A DNA stretch of 12,868 bases from a bacterium (GTDB lineage Bacteria > Patescibacteriota > Minisyncoccia > Phycocordibacterales > UBA2100). The stretch lies in the NCBI GenBank assembly GCA_030698935.1, contig JAUYLR010000081.1, forward strand, positions 1 through 12,868, in the 5' to 3' direction. The notes beneath the pieces were generated by a model, which did not search any database, was not told the origin of the DNA, and was given only the letters and a program-made list of their open reading frames with translations. The position numbers and the translations under genes were made by a program. Positions 387-12,739 of the stretch are shown here, in pieces (within the stretch, counting starts at the first letter, position 1; each line of letters begins with the position of its first letter).

Positions 387-1694
387 TCAGGCGAGTTTTA
401 AATTGCCATTTGCCTTGAGCATGTCGGGATTTACGAACTCCCGATTTTGGGCGCGGAAATACCCCGCGAGCGCTATCATAAGCGCATTGTCCGTCGCGAG
501 TTCGGGAGGTGGAGTTAACAGTTTACAGTCTACGGTTGCCAGTTGTGTCGCCAGTTGCGCCCGGATATGCGTATTTGCAGAAACGCCTCCGCCGACGAGC
601 ACCGTTTGTATTCCGTATTCATCCACCGCTTTCATCGTTTTTGCAACCAGCACGTCAGTCACAGCATCTTCAAATTCCAGAGCGATGCGCGACTTCATTT
701 CATCCGTAAGAGGGGAATGAGCCTGCACTATTCTTAAAACAGCGGTTTTCAGTCCCGCAAAAGAAAAATCCAGAGTGTCGTCATGCAGCATCGGCCGCGG
801 CAAATGAAACGCGGAACCATGCGAAACAGACGCGGAACGATGCGGAACTTTTTCCGCGTGTTTCCGCGTTTGTTCGGCGTTGTTCCGCGACATTTCCGCA
901 AGTGCGGAAATGTGCGGGCCGCCTGGATAGGGAAGTCCGAGAAGTCGCGCAACCTTATCAAACGCTTCGCCGACGGCATCGTCGCGCGTAGCGCCGACGA
1001 TTTTGTAATCGTGCCATTTTGATGAAAGGACTAACTCCGTGTGTCCGCCGGAAATTAAAAGAGAAAGTAAGGGGTAGCGCACAGCGTTTAGCGCACAGCG
1101 TTTAGGTGTATGAGTTTCTTTTTGGAAATTGGGAATTGTAAATTGGAAATTGTCATGTCGCATTAGCGACATGACAATGTGCCCTTCCATGTGATTGACG
1201 GCGACTAAGGGGATATTCCACACGAGGTTCAATGCGCGCGCAAAGTTAATGCCCACCCACAGAGCGGGCTCAAGGCCGGGGCCTACGGTAACTGCAATCG
1301 CATCTATTTCAGGTTTCGCGTATTTTTGGAGAAAAACAATCAGCCGTTCGTATAGGTCGGGCTCTCTCGCAAGGATAATTTGCAGTTCTGCGATGGTGAC
1401 TTTCTGCGAGGCGTCGCCTCGCAGTAATGTCTCGGCCTGTTGGAGCGTTTGCTCAAGCAATGGAACAAGGTTTTTCGCATGTTCTCTTTTCGCAAGATTG
1501 GGGAATACACCGCCATATTGCGCGTGAATTGCGATTTGAGAAATCAGGGAATTTCCGAGTACCTGAAATTGAAAGTTATTACCCGCCTTCGCGTGAAGCT
1601 TCGGCGAGGCAAAGTCAAAATCTCCCTGCGCGTCAATTAAGCATACGGCAGACTCATCGCAGCTTGTTTCTATGCCTAAAATCTTCATATACAT
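387..1694 (-). CDS. tsaD: tRNA N6-adenosine threonylcarbamoyltransferase TsaD, with in-frame insertions
   Basis: Transfers the threonylcarbamoyl group from the TsaC product onto A37 of ANN-decoding tRNAs (t6A). The sequence shows the ASKHA-type start KILGIETSCDES (residues 4-15), the metal-binding HMEGH (168-172), SGGHTEL (215-221), GEAFDKVARLLGLPYPGGP (242-260), LDFSFAGLKTAV (308-319) and ATDNALMIA near the C-terminus. At 435 aa it is much longer than the roughly 330-350 aa usual for bacterial TsaD. The excess lies in four places: residues ~29-49, ~91-128, ~175-206 and ~268-295. Each of these coincides with a palindrome or repeat in the DNA. All motifs are intact, so the protein is probably active. 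Residue 3 (ATG at 1688) is a likely start: it matches the family N-terminus and lies 8 nt after a TACTAT hexamer. The insertion boundaries come from memory of the family, not from an alignment. Confidence 0.95.
   Translation of the reverse strand: MYMKILGIETSCDESAVCLIDAQGDFDFASPKLHAKAGNNFQFQVLGNSLISQIAIHAQYGGVFPNLAKREHAKNLVPLLEQTLQQAETLLRGDASQKVTIAELQIILAREPDLYERLIVFLQKYAKPEIDAIAVTVGPGLEPALWVGINFARALNLVWNIPLVAVNHMEGHIVMSLMRHDNFQFTIPNFQKETHTPKRCALNAVRYPLLSLLISGGHTELVLSSKWHDYKIVGATRDDAVGEAFDKVARLLGLPYPGGPHISALAEMSRNNAEQTRKHAEKVPHRSASVSHGSAFHLPRPMLHDDTLDFSFAGLKTAVLRIVQAHSPLTDEMKSRIALEFEDAVTDVLVAKTMKAVDEYGIQTVLVGGGVSANTHIRAQLATQLATVDCKLLTPPPELATDNALMIALAGYFRAQNREFVNPDMLKANGNLKLA
807..912. repeat. 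GCGGAA/TTCCGC repeat cluster and palindrome inside tsaD
   Basis: The stretch is filled with GCGGAA units and their complements TTCCGC. It ends in a 22-nt palindrome at 891-912 with arms CATTTCCGCA and TGCGGAAATG around 2 nt. It encodes TsaD residues ~261-295, between GGPHISALA and LPRPM, where other TsaD proteins have only a few residues. The frame stays open throughout. Confidence 0.75.
1077..1104. repeat. Tandem 14-bp duplication inside tsaD
   Basis: GCGCACAGCGTTTA occurs twice back to back (1077-1090 and 1091-1104). Fourteen bp is not a multiple of 3, so the two copies are read in different frames. They lie in the third extra segment of TsaD, just before RYPLLSLLISGGHTEL. Confidence 0.85.
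1149..1178. repeat. 13-bp-stem palindrome inside tsaD
   Basis: ATTGTCATGTCGC, a 4-nt loop ATTA, then GCGACATGACAAT. It encodes residues 173-182, directly after the metal-binding HMEGH. It is followed by an AT-rich stretch with repeated GGAAATTG-like units (1123-1152) that encodes the foreign-looking FQFTIPNFQ. Confidence 0.9.
1404..1424. repeat. 10-bp-stem palindrome inside tsaD
   Basis: CTGCGAGGCG, one base T, then CGCCTCGCAG. It encodes LRGDASQ (residues 91-97) at the start of an extra helical segment of TsaD. Confidence 0.9.
1582..1605 (-). repeat. GAAGCTTC-centred imperfect palindrome inside tsaD
   Basis: The 24-nt minus-strand segment contains CCGAAGCTTCACGCGAAGG and encodes residues ~30-37 (within ASPKLHAKA). 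It matches the intergenic segment 7124-7147 at about 19 of 24 positions, so both appear to be copies of one palindromic repeat. It opens the first extra segment of TsaD. Confidence 0.65.
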
Positions 1695-2239: not shown

Positions 2240-4114
2240 ATGACCAACATGCAGGAGGTAAAAAGAAAATTTGCCACTCCGACGCAAGTCTTACGCACGT
2301 ATTACCGGAGCGTAATAAAATACCCTTTTTACATTTTTCTGATATTTGTGGGAGTTGTCGGCCTTCAAATAGCAGACCTCGCCGCCCCGTGGTATTTGAA
2401 AGAGTTCTTCAATTTACTGGCGTCGCAGACGCCGGATGCGTCAATGGTAAGCCGGCTTCTCGGCATCATCGCAATCGTGGCGCTCATTTGGCTCGCGAGT
2501 TGGGCGATGCGTCGACTGCAGGATTTCAGCAACATTCAACTTGAGTCGCGCGTGATGACCAACCTATTCTCAAACGCCTTTGAATACCTGATAGGCCACT
2601 CGTACAATTTTTTCACCTCCAATTTTGCGGGCTCACTCACGCATCGCGTCAGCAAATTTGCGCGCGCGTTTGAAGTCATGTTTGACGCCATCGTCATACA
2701 ATTCTTCCCTACATTTTTGTTCGTGTGCGGAGCGGTAACCGTCCTTTACATACGCAACCATACGCTCGGGATTGCGCTCGGCGTGTGGTCGGTGCTTTTT
2801 ATGGCGTTTCAAATTTACGTCGCCAAACTCCGCCAGCCCGTGCGCGCCGCGCGCGCGGAGGCAGACACGAGAATTACCGGCGCGCTCGCCGATTCAATCT
2901 CAAACCACCCGACAATAATGCTTTTCTCCGGCACCCGCCACGAGCTCGGTCTTTTTAATGCCGTTGTAAACATATGGCGCAAGGCGACAATGCGCTCATG
3001 GTTTACCGACAACTTGATATGGTCCGGCATCGGATTCTTCATGATAGTTATTGAAGTCGGGTTGCTGTGGGGCGCGACTATCTATTGGGGAAAGGGATTG
3101 CTCACAATCGGAGACTTCGTGCTTATTCAGGCCTACCTCATGACGACGTTTGACCGGCTCGTAAGCATCAACCGCGAACTGCGCCGCTTCTACGATGCGC
3201 TCGCGGATTCCAGCGAAATGGTCTACATTCTGGAGCAGAAGCACGACGTAGAGGATGCGCCGGGCGCTACACCCCTCAAGGTTACCGCAGGAGAGATCGT
3301 TTTTCACGAGGTTGATTTTTCTTTCAGCCGGGATAATCGCCTGCTTGTGGCATATAGCATTCGCATTGCGCCCAGAGAAAAAGTCGGCCTCGTGGGCCCA
3401 TCCGGAGCGGGAAAATCAACCATTACCAAACTTCTTCTGCGCATGTTTGACGTACAGCGGGGCACGATTTCCATTGATGGGCAGGATATTTCAAAAGTGA
3501 CGCAGGATTCTTTGCGCGAGGGAATAGCGTTCGTTCCGCAAGAGCCTGTTTTGTTCCACCGGCCGCTTATGGAAAACATCCGCTACGGGCGCCGCGATGC
3601 GACCGACGAAGAGGTGATAGCGGCGGCAAAACAAGCCCACTGTCATGAGTTCATTTTGCGATTGCCCGACAGGTACGATAGCTTCGTCGGCGAGCGCGGC
3701 ATAAAACTCTCCGGAGGCGAGCGTCAGCGCGTTGCCATCGCGCGCGCGATTCTCAAAAACGCACCCATACTTCTCTTGGACGAGGCGACATCAAGTTTGG
3801 ATTCCGAATCGGAAGCGCTCATCCAAGACGCGCTTGAGACATTGATGAAGGATAAGACTGTGATAGTGATAGCGCACCGACTTTCTACGATAATGAAAAT
3901 GGACAGGATAATTGTGCTGGAAAAGGGAAATGTGGTTGCCGAAGGCACGCATCAGCAGTTATTGGAAGACAAAGGGCTGTATCAAAAACTCTGGAAAATC
4001 CAAGCGGGCGGTTTCAGAGACGAACCGGCACCGGAAGAGGTGGATGTGGAGAACATAGAGGCGGAAGAAGAAGACACGGAAAAAGAGCCGCCGGTAGTTC
4101 CGAAGATGAAATGA
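2240..4114 (+). CDS. ABC exporter half-transporter (TM domain fused to ATPase)
   Basis: A multidrug/lipid-exporter type ABC protein of 624 aa, expected to act as a homodimer in the cytoplasmic membrane. The N-terminal ~320 residues hold about six membrane segments (for example YPFYIFLIFVGVVGLQIA and LLGIIAIVALIWLASWAM) and fit an ABC exporter domain. The ATPase has Walker A GPSGAGKST (386-394), Q-loop Gln434, signature LSGGERQ (490-496), Walker B ILLLDE (510-515), D-loop SSLD and switch His546, all intact. The C-terminus is an unusual, strongly acidic tail (~595-624). A second ATG at 2249 is an alternative start; TAGGAT lies 7 nt before it. The substrate cannot be told from sequence. The gene overlaps the next one by 4 nt (ATGA), indicating translational coupling. 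Confidence 0.92.
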   Translation: MTNMQEVKRKFATPTQVLRTYYRSVIKYPFYIFLIFVGVVGLQIADLAAPWYLKEFFNLLASQTPDASMVSRLLGIIAIVALIWLASWAMRRLQDFSNIQLESRVMTNLFSNAFEYLIGHSYNFFTSNFAGSLTHRVSKFARAFEVMFDAIVIQFFPTFLFVCGAVTVLYIRNHTLGIALGVWSVLFMAFQIYVAKLRQPVRAARAEADTRITGALADSISNHPTIMLFSGTRHELGLFNAVVNIWRKATMRSWFTDNLIWSGIGFFMIVIEVGLLWGATIYWGKGLLTIGDFVLIQAYLMTTFDRLVSINRELRRFYDALADSSEMVYILEQKHDVEDAPGATPLKVTAGEIVFHEVDFSFSRDNRLLVAYSIRIAPREKVGLVGPSGAGKSTITKLLLRMFDVQRGTISIDGQDISKVTQDSLREGIAFVPQEPVLFHRPLMENIRYGRRDATDEEVIAAAKQAHCHEFILRLPDRYDSFVGERGIKLSGGERQRVAIARAILKNAPILLLDEATSSLDSESEALIQDALETLMKDKTVIVIAHRLSTIMKMDRIIVLEKGNVVAEGTHQQLLEDKGLYQKLWKIQAGGFRDEPAPEEVDVENIEAEEEDTEKEPPVVPKMK

Positions 4115-4833
4115 AAAAGAAAACCGTTCTGGTTTGTATATTGAAACATAAACGCGATCGGCGCATATTATTGCAAGAACGATGGTACAGAATTCCCGTC
4201 GCCTATCTGCCCCGGCGGAAGTTCACGCATCTCGCGTTTTACCAGCCGATAGAGTTTGGAAGATTCGGTAAGCGCATACAATATTATGCGCGCGTGCTGA
4301 ATAGGAAAATTGTAAAGAGAATTGACTTACTGCCAAAAGAGAAAAATCATCCACGGGCGCACGACGAGTATCTGAAGATTGGATTGGTGTGGATAAGAAA
4401 ACTTCCGCACCAGATTAAAAATATCATCCCGCGCAGGGTTTCTTTCGGGTTTACCACTCTAAAATCCTTGTTGAAGGCTGGTGATATTTTGGAGCTGTAT
4501 GGAATTTCACCCACGGAACAAATTATAGAGAGGGGGTTACAGAGGTTGGGCATCAAAACAGAAAAGGAATTTACTATCTCAAAGGATGGCAAACGGTATC
4601 GTCTTGATTTGGCGGTCTTCTGCCGCGATGGCCGCATCGCCATTGAATGCGACAACCTCAAGGCGCATTCAGGAGTACAGATAGGCAAAGACAAGATAAA
4701 GGATGCATTCCTGAAGCGCCACGGTTGGCACGTAATCCGTTTGAGGGAACCGGATATTATTGAAAAGCCCGATTATTGTCTCGGGCTCGTGGTAAAAGCA
4801 GTCAACAGGTTTGGCGGTCAAGTTGATTCGTAG
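4111..4833 (+). CDS. Unknown N-terminal domain plus PD-(D/E)XK/DUF559-like nuclease domain
   Basis: A 240-aa protein. The C-terminal half (from ~132) resembles the Vsr/DUF559 branch of PD-(D/E)XK nucleases: a helix with Glu (TEQIIERGL, 135-143), then RYRLDLAVF with Asp166, then RIAIECDN with Glu179 and Asp181, then KDKIKDAFLKRHGWHVIRLRE (193-213), the classic 'GW-VIR--' strand after a basic helix. The N-terminal ~115 residues are basic and aromatic (RKFTHLAFYQPIEFGRFGKRIQYYARV) and end in IPRRVSFGFTTLKSLL. I cannot assign that domain. The start overlaps the ABC exporter stop by 4 nt, so the two are probably co-translated, which is an odd partnership for a transporter. The metal-site arrangement is E...D...ExD, not the canonical ExK, so catalysis is likely but unproven. 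Confidence 0.75.
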   Translation: MKKKTVLVCILKHKRDRRILLQERWYRIPVAYLPRRKFTHLAFYQPIEFGRFGKRIQYYARVLNRKIVKRIDLLPKEKNHPRAHDEYLKIGLVWIRKLPHQIKNIIPRRVSFGFTTLKSLLKAGDILELYGISPTEQIIERGLQRLGIKTEKEFTISKDGKRYRLDLAVFCRDGRIAIECDNLKAHSGVQIGKDKIKDAFLKRHGWHVIRLREPDIIEKPDYCLGLVVKAVNRFGGQVDS

Positions 4834-6132: not shown

Positions 6133-6822
6133 ATGGAAGTATTGAATCTCAAAAAACAGGGCATGGCGGCGTGCGTGAAGAATGCTGTCAAAGAATTGGC
6201 GGCGGGTGGCGTGATTATCTATCCCACCGATACGCTTTATGGGCTGGGAGCAGACGCGCTTTCAGACAAGGCAGTTGGCAAAGTGTATAAGATAAAAGGG
6301 CGCGATGAGCGGAAGCCCATTCATGCGATTGTCGCGGATATAAAAATGATTGAGAAATACGCGGAGGTGCCCGACATGGCGCGTATGCTCGCGAAAGAAT
6401 TTTTGCCGGGACCGCTCACGCTGATACTCAAGAAAAAAGCGGGCATAAAGACAGGTATCGCGAAAGGAGTATCAAAAATCGGTTTTCGCATCCCCAATAA
6501 CCAATTTTGCCCTGCGCTTGCGAAGAAATTCGGCGGCCCCATAACAACGACGAGCGCAAATAAAAGCGGGCGTAAAACAGAACGCACAGTAAAAGCGGTT
6601 TTGGAACAACTCGGTGTCAATAATCCCTATGCTAGTGTTTTGCAAAAGACTGCAATAAGAAAAAAGACAGGTATAGATTTGGTCATTGATACAGGTGAAC
6701 TCCCCGAACGCCAGCCCTCAACAGTCGTGGACTTGTGTGGTAAAGAGCCGGTAATTTTGCGTGAAGGGGCTATTTCCGCTTCCGAAATCTGGAATCTTCT
6801 CGGAACAGAATTTCAAGATTGA
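6133..6822 (+). CDS. tsaC: Threonylcarbamoyl-AMP synthase TsaC (YrdC domain), with a palindrome-derived insertion
   Basis: Makes threonylcarbamoyl-AMP from threonine, bicarbonate and ATP, the donor for t6A synthesis by TsaD. A 229-aa single YrdC domain: GGVIIYPTDTLYGLGADA (25-42), the nucleotide/carbamate site YKIKGRDERKP (52-62), LPGPLTLIL (91-99), GFRIPNN (117-123), and TTSANKSG (139-146) with its conserved S-x-N. The C-terminus PSTVVDL...VILREGAI is typical. There is no C-terminal Sua5 domain. Residues ~163-180 (NNPYASVLQKTAIRKKTG) look inserted between LEQLG and IDLVIDTG and coincide with a palindrome (6627-6659). I chose the ATG at 6133 because GATAAT sits 6 nt before it and the longer upstream frame has no family similarity. 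It is convergent with the repair gene downstream (3-nt gap). Confidence 0.92.
   Translation: MEVLNLKKQGMAACVKNAVKELAAGGVIIYPTDTLYGLGADALSDKAVGKVYKIKGRDERKPIHAIVADIKMIEKYAEVPDMARMLAKEFLPGPLTLILKKKAGIKTGIAKGVSKIGFRIPNNQFCPALAKKFGGPITTTSANKSGRKTERTVKAVLEQLGVNNPYASVLQKTAIRKKTGIDLVIDTGELPERQPSTVVDLCGKEPVILREGAISASEIWNLLGTEFQD
6627..6659. repeat. TTTTGCAAAA-centred palindrome inside tsaC
   Basis: An imperfect palindrome around TTTTGCAAAA. The right half, TTTTGCAAAAGACTGCAATA (6638-6657), is identical over 20 nt to part of the intergenic palindrome 11295-11326. The left half, CTATGCTAGTGTTTTG, differs at two positions from the left arm of the palindrome at 11785-11818. It encodes TsaC residues 165-176. 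Confidence 0.85.
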
Positions 6823-7872: not shown

Positions 7873-7904
7873 ATAGTCTCGTATTCTTAAGAATACGAGA
7901 CTAT
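7873..7904. repeat. Perfect 32-bp loopless palindrome
   Basis: Left arm ATAGTCTCGTATTCTT and its exact complement, centred on TTAA. It lies between the divergent alkA-like and pdxS genes, just upstream of the pdxS promoter. An operator role is possible, but similar palindromes occur at several unrelated sites here. Confidence 0.95.
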
Positions 7905-10710: not shown

Positions 10711-10740
10711 CATTCCAACATTCTGCAGAATGTTGGAATG
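10711..10740. repeat. Perfect 30-bp loopless palindrome
   Basis: Left arm CATTCCAACATTCTG and its exact complement, centred on TGCA. It lies between the nudix stop and the argF promoter. It has no T-tract and little GC, so it does not look like a standard terminator. Confidence 0.95.
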
Positions 10741-11294: not shown

Positions 11295-11326
11295 CTATTG
11301 CAGTCTTTTGCAAAAGACTGCAATAG
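11295..11326. repeat. Perfect 32-bp loopless palindrome (TTTTGCAAAA family)
   Basis: Left arm CTATTGCAGTCTTTTG and its exact complement. Twenty bases of it are repeated inside tsaC (6638-6657), and its core and ends match the palindrome at 11785-11818. It lies between the nudix gene and the next minus-strand gene. Confidence 0.97.
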
Positions 11327-11784: not shown

Positions 11785-11818
11785 TCTATTCTAGTATTTT
11801 GCAAAATACTAGAATAGA
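11785..11818. repeat. Perfect 34-bp loopless palindrome (TTTTGCAAAA family)
   Basis: Left arm TCTATTCTAGTATTTTG and its exact complement. The TTTTGCAAAA core and the CTAT/ATAG ends are shared with 11295-11326 and with the tsaC-internal copy. It stands in a non-coding stretch about 75 bp upstream of the 108-aa protein gene. Confidence 0.97.
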
Positions 11819-11920: not shown

Positions 11921-12081
11921 CCCGTTAGAGAATGTCCCGTGCGACAAGTAGCGGGTCGCATTACTCGCGGCGAACATTCATATTTGCTTATTCAATTGAA
12001 TAAGCAAATATGAATCGGGACACAGACTATCAGAATAAGCACAGTACGGGGTTTAATACCCCGTGTGAGTTCTCTAATGGG
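11921..12081. other. Multi-helix non-coding element containing a perfect 40-bp palindrome
   Basis: Outer arms CCCGTTAGAGAA (11921-11932) and TTCTCTAATGGG (12070-12081) pair with one G-T. Immediately inside, TGTCCCG (11933-11939) pairs with CGGGACA (12016-12022). Between these lie a hairpin TGCGAC/GTCGCA (11940-11960) and a perfect 40-bp palindrome at 11976-12015 (left arm ATTCATATTTGCTTATTCAA). A last hairpin, ACGGGGT/ACCCCGT, is at 12046-12064. The element begins 2 nt past the stop of the winged-helix gene. No open frame of note. The nesting suggests a folded RNA or a mobile palindromic element; I do not recognise a known family. Confidence 0.7.
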
Positions 12082-12478: not shown

Positions 12479-12739
12479 CTATCGATATGCGTCTTTGCGG
12501 TGTCTGATTCTGTACACAAGAATCGTTCCACCTTCTTCAAACTCAAAAAGAACCCTGTAATCTCCCAAGCGTAGACGGTACCCGGTAAACGGCTCTTGAA
12601 CTTTTCTCGTGTTAAATCGAGGGCCAAATGGATTCGTCTGAAAGTCTCCGTCAAACAATTTCCTTACTCGTATCTGCACCTCACTCGGCAGACGTTTATA
12701 TTCCCGTTCGGCCGCAGAAGTGAGGACAATGCGAGCCAT
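12479..12739 (-). CDS. RelE/ParE-superfamily toxin
   Basis: An 86-aa protein with the compact fold of RelE-type toxins: MARIVLTSAAEREYKRLPSEVQIRVRKLF (strand and two helices), then the strands PFTGYRLRLGDYRVLFEF and TILVYRIRHRKDAYR. GYRLRLGDYRVLFE and IRHRKDAYR match the typical RelE pattern, with basic residues where ribosome-dependent mRNA interferases have them. The C-terminal RHRKDAYR favours RelE over ParE gyrase inhibitors, but the two cannot be told apart securely. It lies 12 nt downstream of a short partial gene on the same strand that is probably its antitoxin. No strong ribosome-binding site precedes it, suggesting coupled translation. Confidence 0.88.
   Translation of the reverse strand: MARIVLTSAAEREYKRLPSEVQIRVRKLFDGDFQTNPFGPRFNTRKVQEPFTGYRLRLGDYRVLFEFEEGGTILVYRIRHRKDAYR

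Follow-up and report, generated by a model that had tools for sequence, protein, structure and literature searches.

Loops of TsaD in Kaiserbacteria as probable landing sites of short REP-like palindromes

The tsaD gene of Candidatus Kaiserbacteria contains palindromic DNA in several of its loop-coding parts. We analysed it in a stretch of 12,868 nucleotides (the window; JAUYLR010000081.1 of assembly GCA_030698935.1), which is contig 85 in a 69%-complete genome totalling 678,695 bases. The TsaD protein of the window scored 331 bits with the NCBIfam model TIGR03723 (cut-off 296). Our results make it likely that short mobile palindromes have landed repeatedly in the TsaD loops of Kaiserbacteria. 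The main class resembles repetitive extragenic palindromic (REP) elements and, in 6 of 22 genomes, matches the flanks of the genome's own genes for transposases of the REP-associated tyrosine transposase (RAYT) type.

Palindromes in tsaD and in the sampled genomes

The 34 tsaD genes of the genus contained 32 palindromes with an arm of at least 10 nt in 23 genes, compared with 0.45 in synonymous shuffles and 0.15 after codon permutation; 11 of the 34 had none. In 16 tsaD genes of other families, 4 such palindromes were found, compared with 0.2 and 0, respectively. When arms of at least 9 were counted, 36 of the 39 palindromes of the genus lay within four loops that make up about 21% of the residues, the loop limits being derived from an alignment that itself includes the inserts. 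Alignment A1 comprised 48 of 50 TsaD sequences, leaving out L019, which is truncated, and L027, which has a flagged stop. The residues H168, E170, H172, D402 and N403 were among those invariant in all 48, in agreement with an earlier reading of the window from its sequence only, which had noted that the catalytic motifs are kept.

Sorted by eye into families, the tsaD palindromes share cores such as AGGCGWCGCCT, AAGGTCNGACCTT, GAGRTGWCAYCTC and TTACGAA. The sequence of the arms varies between species and the pairing is kept. The palindrome kinds were also placed on a tree of the TsaD core. For two groups of species with a shared kind at one loop, the tree requires at least three changes on well supported branches, and these groups were no more clustered than shuffled labels. 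Neighbouring species differ in palindrome family and in the loop that carries it.

The excess extends to the genomes. Palindromes with an arm of at least 10 occurred at 23.0 per 100 kb in a sample of the window's own genome and at 5.0-45.0 in nine other genomes of the genus, compared with 0-1.5 in shuffles. For the own sample, 20 contigs were taken together with the window, 187 kb out of 679 kb; its density may be high since 18 of the contigs were chosen for matching tsaD; the other genomes were sampled by place. Six genomes from other families of the order gave 30.0, 32.5 and 40.0 in three cases and 5.0, 7.5 and 10.0 in the others. Since three of the six reach 30-40 per 100 kb, the genus is not alone in this excess. 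Open reading frames (ORFs) of at least 150 aa cover 79-83% of the sampled DNA, and most palindromes lie outside them: only 13 of the 43 from the own sample and 28 of the 98 from the other genus samples were inside.

Y1 transposase genes and copies in other housekeeping genes

Genes for Y1 transposases were examined at 67 of 149 places in 24 genomes. In the relatives of the window's genome these genes carry such palindromes at their flanks. The predicted fold of the proteins is closest to the RAYT structure 4er8, and H110, H112 and Y170 (the HuH motif and a tyrosine) are invariant in 42 aligned rows, which suggests Y170 as the catalytic tyrosine. With the NCBIfam RAYT model NF047646, all 8 of 8 proteins remained below the cut-off of 80 bits, at 31.0-39.9. 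Among 78 flank palindromes (arm up to 16), no conserved base was found at the 8 positions on either side.

The palindromes of tsaD and of the Y1 flanks were then compared in the 22 genomes that had both a tsaD palindrome (arm of at least 8) and examined Y1 flanks; the control ORFs of this test may include some non-genes. In 6 of the 22, the longest exact match within the genome was at least 16 nt (G015, 27 nt; G007 and G013, 23 nt each; G035 and G012, 21 nt each; G008, 17 nt). Pairs from different genomes reached this length in 2 of 462 cases, and 6 was reached in none of 10,000 label shuffles. One match between genomes, of the G008 tsaD to a foreign flank, was 29 nt and thus longer than every match within a genome. 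In G015, a 21-nt pattern occurs in three places, near each end of a Y1 gene and in tsaD.

The REP-like palindrome in loop 2 of the window's TsaD has relatives in its genome as well. At up to 3 mismatches, CTGCGAGGCGACGCCTCGCAG was found in six places, and the reversed-pattern control in none. Besides tsaD, the copies are an exact one on contig C20 outside long ORFs, one on C23 that lies in frame within an ABC-ATPase ORF, and others on C24, C36 and C57. Its core was seen again beside Y1 genes in G007 and G016. A PF01797 search of the window's genome gave no match. One RAYT, truncated at the end of contig C101, was recovered with an alignment of 42 relatives; it has a different palindrome, which includes its stop codon. 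Since this sole RAYT bears another palindrome, the mover of the loop-2 palindrome is one that we infer. We regard this palindrome as most likely a REP-like mobile element of the kind described here.

A dispersed unit was found in G035, where the 19-nt TGGAAGGTCNGACCTTCCA occurs in 20 places at up to 2 mismatches, including five close pairs, 0-6 nt apart and with opposite centres, as in REPINs. Among the 17 places read (C30, C3 and C16 were not among them), 15 lay in ORFs of at least 120 aa, with C24 and C27:297 outside. The unit stands in frame in six housekeeping genes: tsaD, a dnaE ORF, gatA, a beta-CASP nuclease gene, the gene of a class-V aminotransferase closest to cysteine desulfurases, and miaA. 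The copies are read in differing frames, as GRSDLP, EGQTF or KVRPS. In the G035 Y1 ORF, one copy stands in frame behind the Y1 domain, and two further copies lie in an N-terminal extension, possibly preceding the true start. In G004, tsaD contains two copies of another unit, and a third copy lies in an ORF (L250) called miaA-like by eye from its likeness to the G035 protein, not from a family scan. L250 and the G035 miaA (L233) carry two palindrome families at the same stretch of the gene in two species.

Two further observations concern the Y1 places. An exact DnaA box, TTATCCACA, lies on the 5' side of 8 of the 67 (L169, L178, L181, L182, L197, L217, L083 and L097), where about 0.37 would be expected from a background of 13 in 733,175 bases. 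At L180 (G023, contig C11), two Y1 genes of equal length lie about 1.1 kb apart with identical flank palindromes, as if the entire Y1-palindrome unit had been duplicated.

Sites in the window and a second palindrome class

The sequence-only reading had proposed four palindromic insertions in the window's tsaD, which may mark an active palindromic element; for the window, this description is too strong. Compared with solved TsaD structures, extra residues are indeed present at four places (Table 1). The palindromes of loops 2 and 3 are perfect, with 0 of 100 shuffles equally good for either one, and 807-912 bears inverted CGCGGAA repeats that 1 of 100 shuffles equalled. The segment 1582-1605 is not palindromic beyond chance, as 80 of 100 shuffles were equally good.

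The sites also differ in the length that they add. Site 1 has 26 residues versus 15, and its 11-residue insert is absent from every other of the 50 aligned TsaD. Site 4 has 38 residues, compared with 20-25 in the four nearest relatives and a genus median of 20; both sites are private to the window. Loop 2, by comparison, is found in most relatives at roughly equal length. Since its length is 46 residues both in the window and in all four nearest relatives, the palindrome adds no length relative to these. The objection that the sequence-only reading had itself named, relatives with the same extra residues, therefore holds for this loop. A structure model predicts with confidence that the second part of the loop is helical. 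At site 3, the window has 34 residues, the four nearest relatives 31-36, and the genus median is 23.

Sites 3 and 4 are composites of a hairpin plus simple repeats. In loop 3, the hairpin is accompanied by direct repeats (1128-1141 and 1142-1155) of the AATTTCC type, whose best near copy in the own genome is on C82 (E 1.8e-5), and by the tandem pair of AAACGCTGTGCGCT, which had been overlooked in the sequence-only reading and has weak scattered matches on C108, C77, C19 and C87 (E 0.017 to 1.45). The perfect palindrome beside site 4 encodes conserved residues and not the insert. A single palindromic family behind all four sites was rejected, given their different sequences and kinds. The elements belong to more than one family, so that a single active element is not supported. 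In the C-terminal codons of the gene, the near palindrome TCGGGAGTTCGTAAATCCCGA has a perfect form at the same place of the G018 tsaD, without a change in length, and its family occurs twice in loop 3 of that gene.

Table 1. Features of the window
Positions	Strand	Feature	Basis
387..1694	-	tsaD, 435 aa	TIGR03723
424..444	-	near palindrome TCGGGAGTTCGTAAATCCCGA, 9-bp stem with one mismatched pair, codes REFVNPD	
825..878	-	about 18 extra residues, loop 4 (site 4), CGCGGAA repeat cluster	alignment, bounds approximate
890..913	-	perfect palindrome with an arm of 11, within the conserved codons HISALAEM	
1076..1103	-	tandem pair of AAACGCTGTGCGCT, loop 3	
1126..1155	-	AATTTCC-type repeats (NFQFTIPNFQ), loop 3	dispersed near copies in own genome
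1149..1178	-	perfect 13-bp hairpin, 4-nt loop; one arm is the conserved IVMS codons, the other begins the loop-3 insert	
1404..1424	-	perfect odd-centred palindrome CTGCGAGGCGACGCCTCGCAG, REP-like, codes LRGDASQ, loop 2	shuffles, genome copies
1584..1616	-	private 11-residue insert DFASPKLHAKA, loop 1 (site 1)	TsaD alignment
4111..4833		MTES_1575-type endonuclease-like ORF	
6627..6657	+	imperfect palindrome of the second class with core TTTTGCAAAA, read in frame in tsaC as YASVLQKTAI	
7873..7904		long perfect palindrome, arm 16	
10711..10740		second-class perfect palindrome CATTCCAACATTCTGCAGAATGTTGGAATG	
11295..11326		second-class perfect palindrome, core TTTTGCAAAA	
11384..11710	-	108-aa ORF	
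11785..11818		second-class perfect palindrome, core TTTTGCAAAA	
11873..11908		long perfect palindrome, arm 17	
11976..12015		long perfect palindrome, arm 20	
12479..12739		ParE-like toxin ORF	PF05016

The palindromes of a second class are even and 30-34 nt long, and their cores include TTTTGCAAAA and ATTCTGCAGAAT. This class was present in 15 of 36 genomes, with up to 17 copies each at up to 3 mismatches and 0 in the control. In loop 3 of tsaD it encodes, in one register and in several species, peptides like (H/Y)(S/A)(N/S)(I/V)L(Q/E)N. One loop of tsaC contains it in 7 of 29 genes, including the window's, and the other 22 are without it. In the tsaC genes L129 (G023) and L131 (G021), the copy seems to be split by a further insert, PARRSLGAGG. 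Columns 6 and 25 of the arms pair in 33 of 53 rows among the matches listed (shuffle mean 20.2); the pattern itself is nearly palindromic and these are its only free columns. No partner transposase of this class was found. In the window, two second-class palindromes flank the 108-aa ORF, which matched no Pfam family and had no relative among the loci searched.

Mechanism, alternatives and relation to known systems

In the mechanism that we favour, the main class is a hairpin of about 19-31 nt, near-perfect and odd-centred, which can occur as an inverted pair and matches the palindromes at the ends of RAYT-type HuH/Y1 genes in the same genome. By analogy with TnpA_REP of E. coli, the transposase would recognise the folded single strand and then move or copy the hairpin. 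Insertions into genes would survive only if the frame is kept and the loop is flexible. The other extra residues of the window's TsaD are a different hairpin and simple dispersed repeats, which occupy these same permissive loops.

Several results weigh against this mechanism, in addition to the origin of the loop limits mentioned above. A match of at least 16 nt within the genome was missing in 16 of the 22 genomes, 16 of the 67 Y1 places had no palindrome in the flank windows used, and no GTAG- or CGTC-like tag was seen beside the flank hairpins. A transposase gene flanked by the window's loop-2 palindrome was not found in its 69%-complete genome. Moreover, the G035 cysteine desulfurase is about 20 residues longer than its solved relatives, but GatA gains only about 4 and MiaA about none, so some copies look like replacements of loop sequence.

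Alternatively, the inverted repeats could arise and become perfect in place by local template switching in variable loops, without a mobile element. One arm of the loop-3 hairpin is conserved coding sequence, the palindrome beside site 4 lies wholly in conserved codons, and arms that vary between species and remain paired would fit as well. However, cores are common to different species and genes, tsaD palindromes are identical to Y1 flanks of the same genome, and the 19-nt unit in six housekeeping genes of G035 is not expected from local events. On these grounds pure template switching was rejected as a general account, and we consider it unlikely. Selection of the hairpins for a function in mRNA or DNA, such as translation pausing or as a binding site, seems less probable still. 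It would explain the covariation of the second class, but this is also expected if already perfect variants were copied in, and 11 of the 34 genes do without a palindrome while tree neighbours differ in family and loop. We give the least credence to extra residues that are ancient, vertically inherited loops with incidental palindromes. This holds for loop 2 itself, given its similar length in most relatives and its predicted helix, but not for its palindrome. As a general account it was rejected on the excess over synonymous shuffles, the private sites 1 and 4, for which it is refuted, and the two palindrome-sharing groups with their changes on the tree.

The sequence-only reading had likened the sites to Rickettsia palindromic elements (RPEs). 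Its notion of mobile palindromes in frame is well supported for the genus by the excess and the Y1-flank matches, but a divergent, untagged REP/RAYT system fits better than the Rickettsia element. As in RPEs, palindromes add in-frame residues to unrelated proteins (the six G035 genes; tsaC); what differs is that several of the genomes here also contain a transposase gene that bears the palindrome. The likeness to RPEs is drawn from their general description. With REP/REPIN-RAYT systems (REPtrons) our elements share hairpin-forming palindromes of about 20-50 nt at both ends of a HuH/Y1 gene, dispersed copies, the inverted pairs of G035 (none was seen for the window's element) and the predicted fold nearest 4er8. 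The tsaD palindromes flank a RAYT gene of their own genome in the 6 of 22 cases, to which the window's does not belong. Our elements differ from REPtrons in the missing conserved tetranucleotide, the low copy number (3 in G015, 20 in G035), the scores below the NF047646 cut-off and their hosts, the Patescibacteria. REPs are mostly outside genes; most of the palindromes sampled here lie outside long ORFs, but the G035 unit is inside ORFs in 15 of the 17 places read.

PMC6006769 describes in-frame REPs within tnpAREP genes of subclass 2.4, similar to the in-frame copy in the G035 Y1 ORF; the terms Parcubacteria and Patescibacteria are absent from its text. PMC3733652 reports REPs within genes, in frame and including repair and tRNA-modification genes, and equates the R. 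conorii elements RPE-4 and RPE-6 with REPs of the CGTC type. Recognition of the hairpin and of GTAG is described in PMC8266576. According to PMC3733652 and PMC6006769, intragenic REPs were thus already known. Our analysis adds an untagged RAYT-hairpin system of Patescibacteria, the same-genome match between flank and in-gene copies, and the repeated use of one gene's loops. The open-access literature searched, which excludes most subscription journals, contained no REP/RAYT pair of Patescibacteria and no paper joining Kaiserbacteria with palindromes, or REP sequences with transposase and Patescibacteria.

A wider reading is conceivable but doubtful. Untagged RAYT-hairpin pairs may be numerous in Kaiserbacteria, every transposase having an odd-centred hairpin of its own. 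Some of these would persist in small genomes in frame in essential-gene loops, where deletion is costly. The loops of tRNA A37-modification proteins (TsaD, MiaA; TsaC for the second class) would be favoured refuges, mobile DNA would be a steady source of new protein loops, and coding palindromes such as RPEs would generally be made by such transposases. We lowered our estimate for genes as favoured refuges because the palindromes are mostly outside long genes, and the case for A37-modification genes comes from the sequences of a few genes.

To our knowledge, it has not been shown so far what spreads coding palindromes like those of Rickettsia. Several times, a single genome was found here to contain all three parts: a palindrome, a copy of it in frame in an essential gene, and a transposase gene flanked by that palindrome. 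The question of the spreading agent is therefore testable. In these very small uncultured bacteria, mobile DNA appears to have been turned into protein, as frame-preserving palindromes in a few loops of the essential tsaD. This suggests that where proteins of Patescibacteria have extra loops, these can be recent mobile DNA rather than adaptations.
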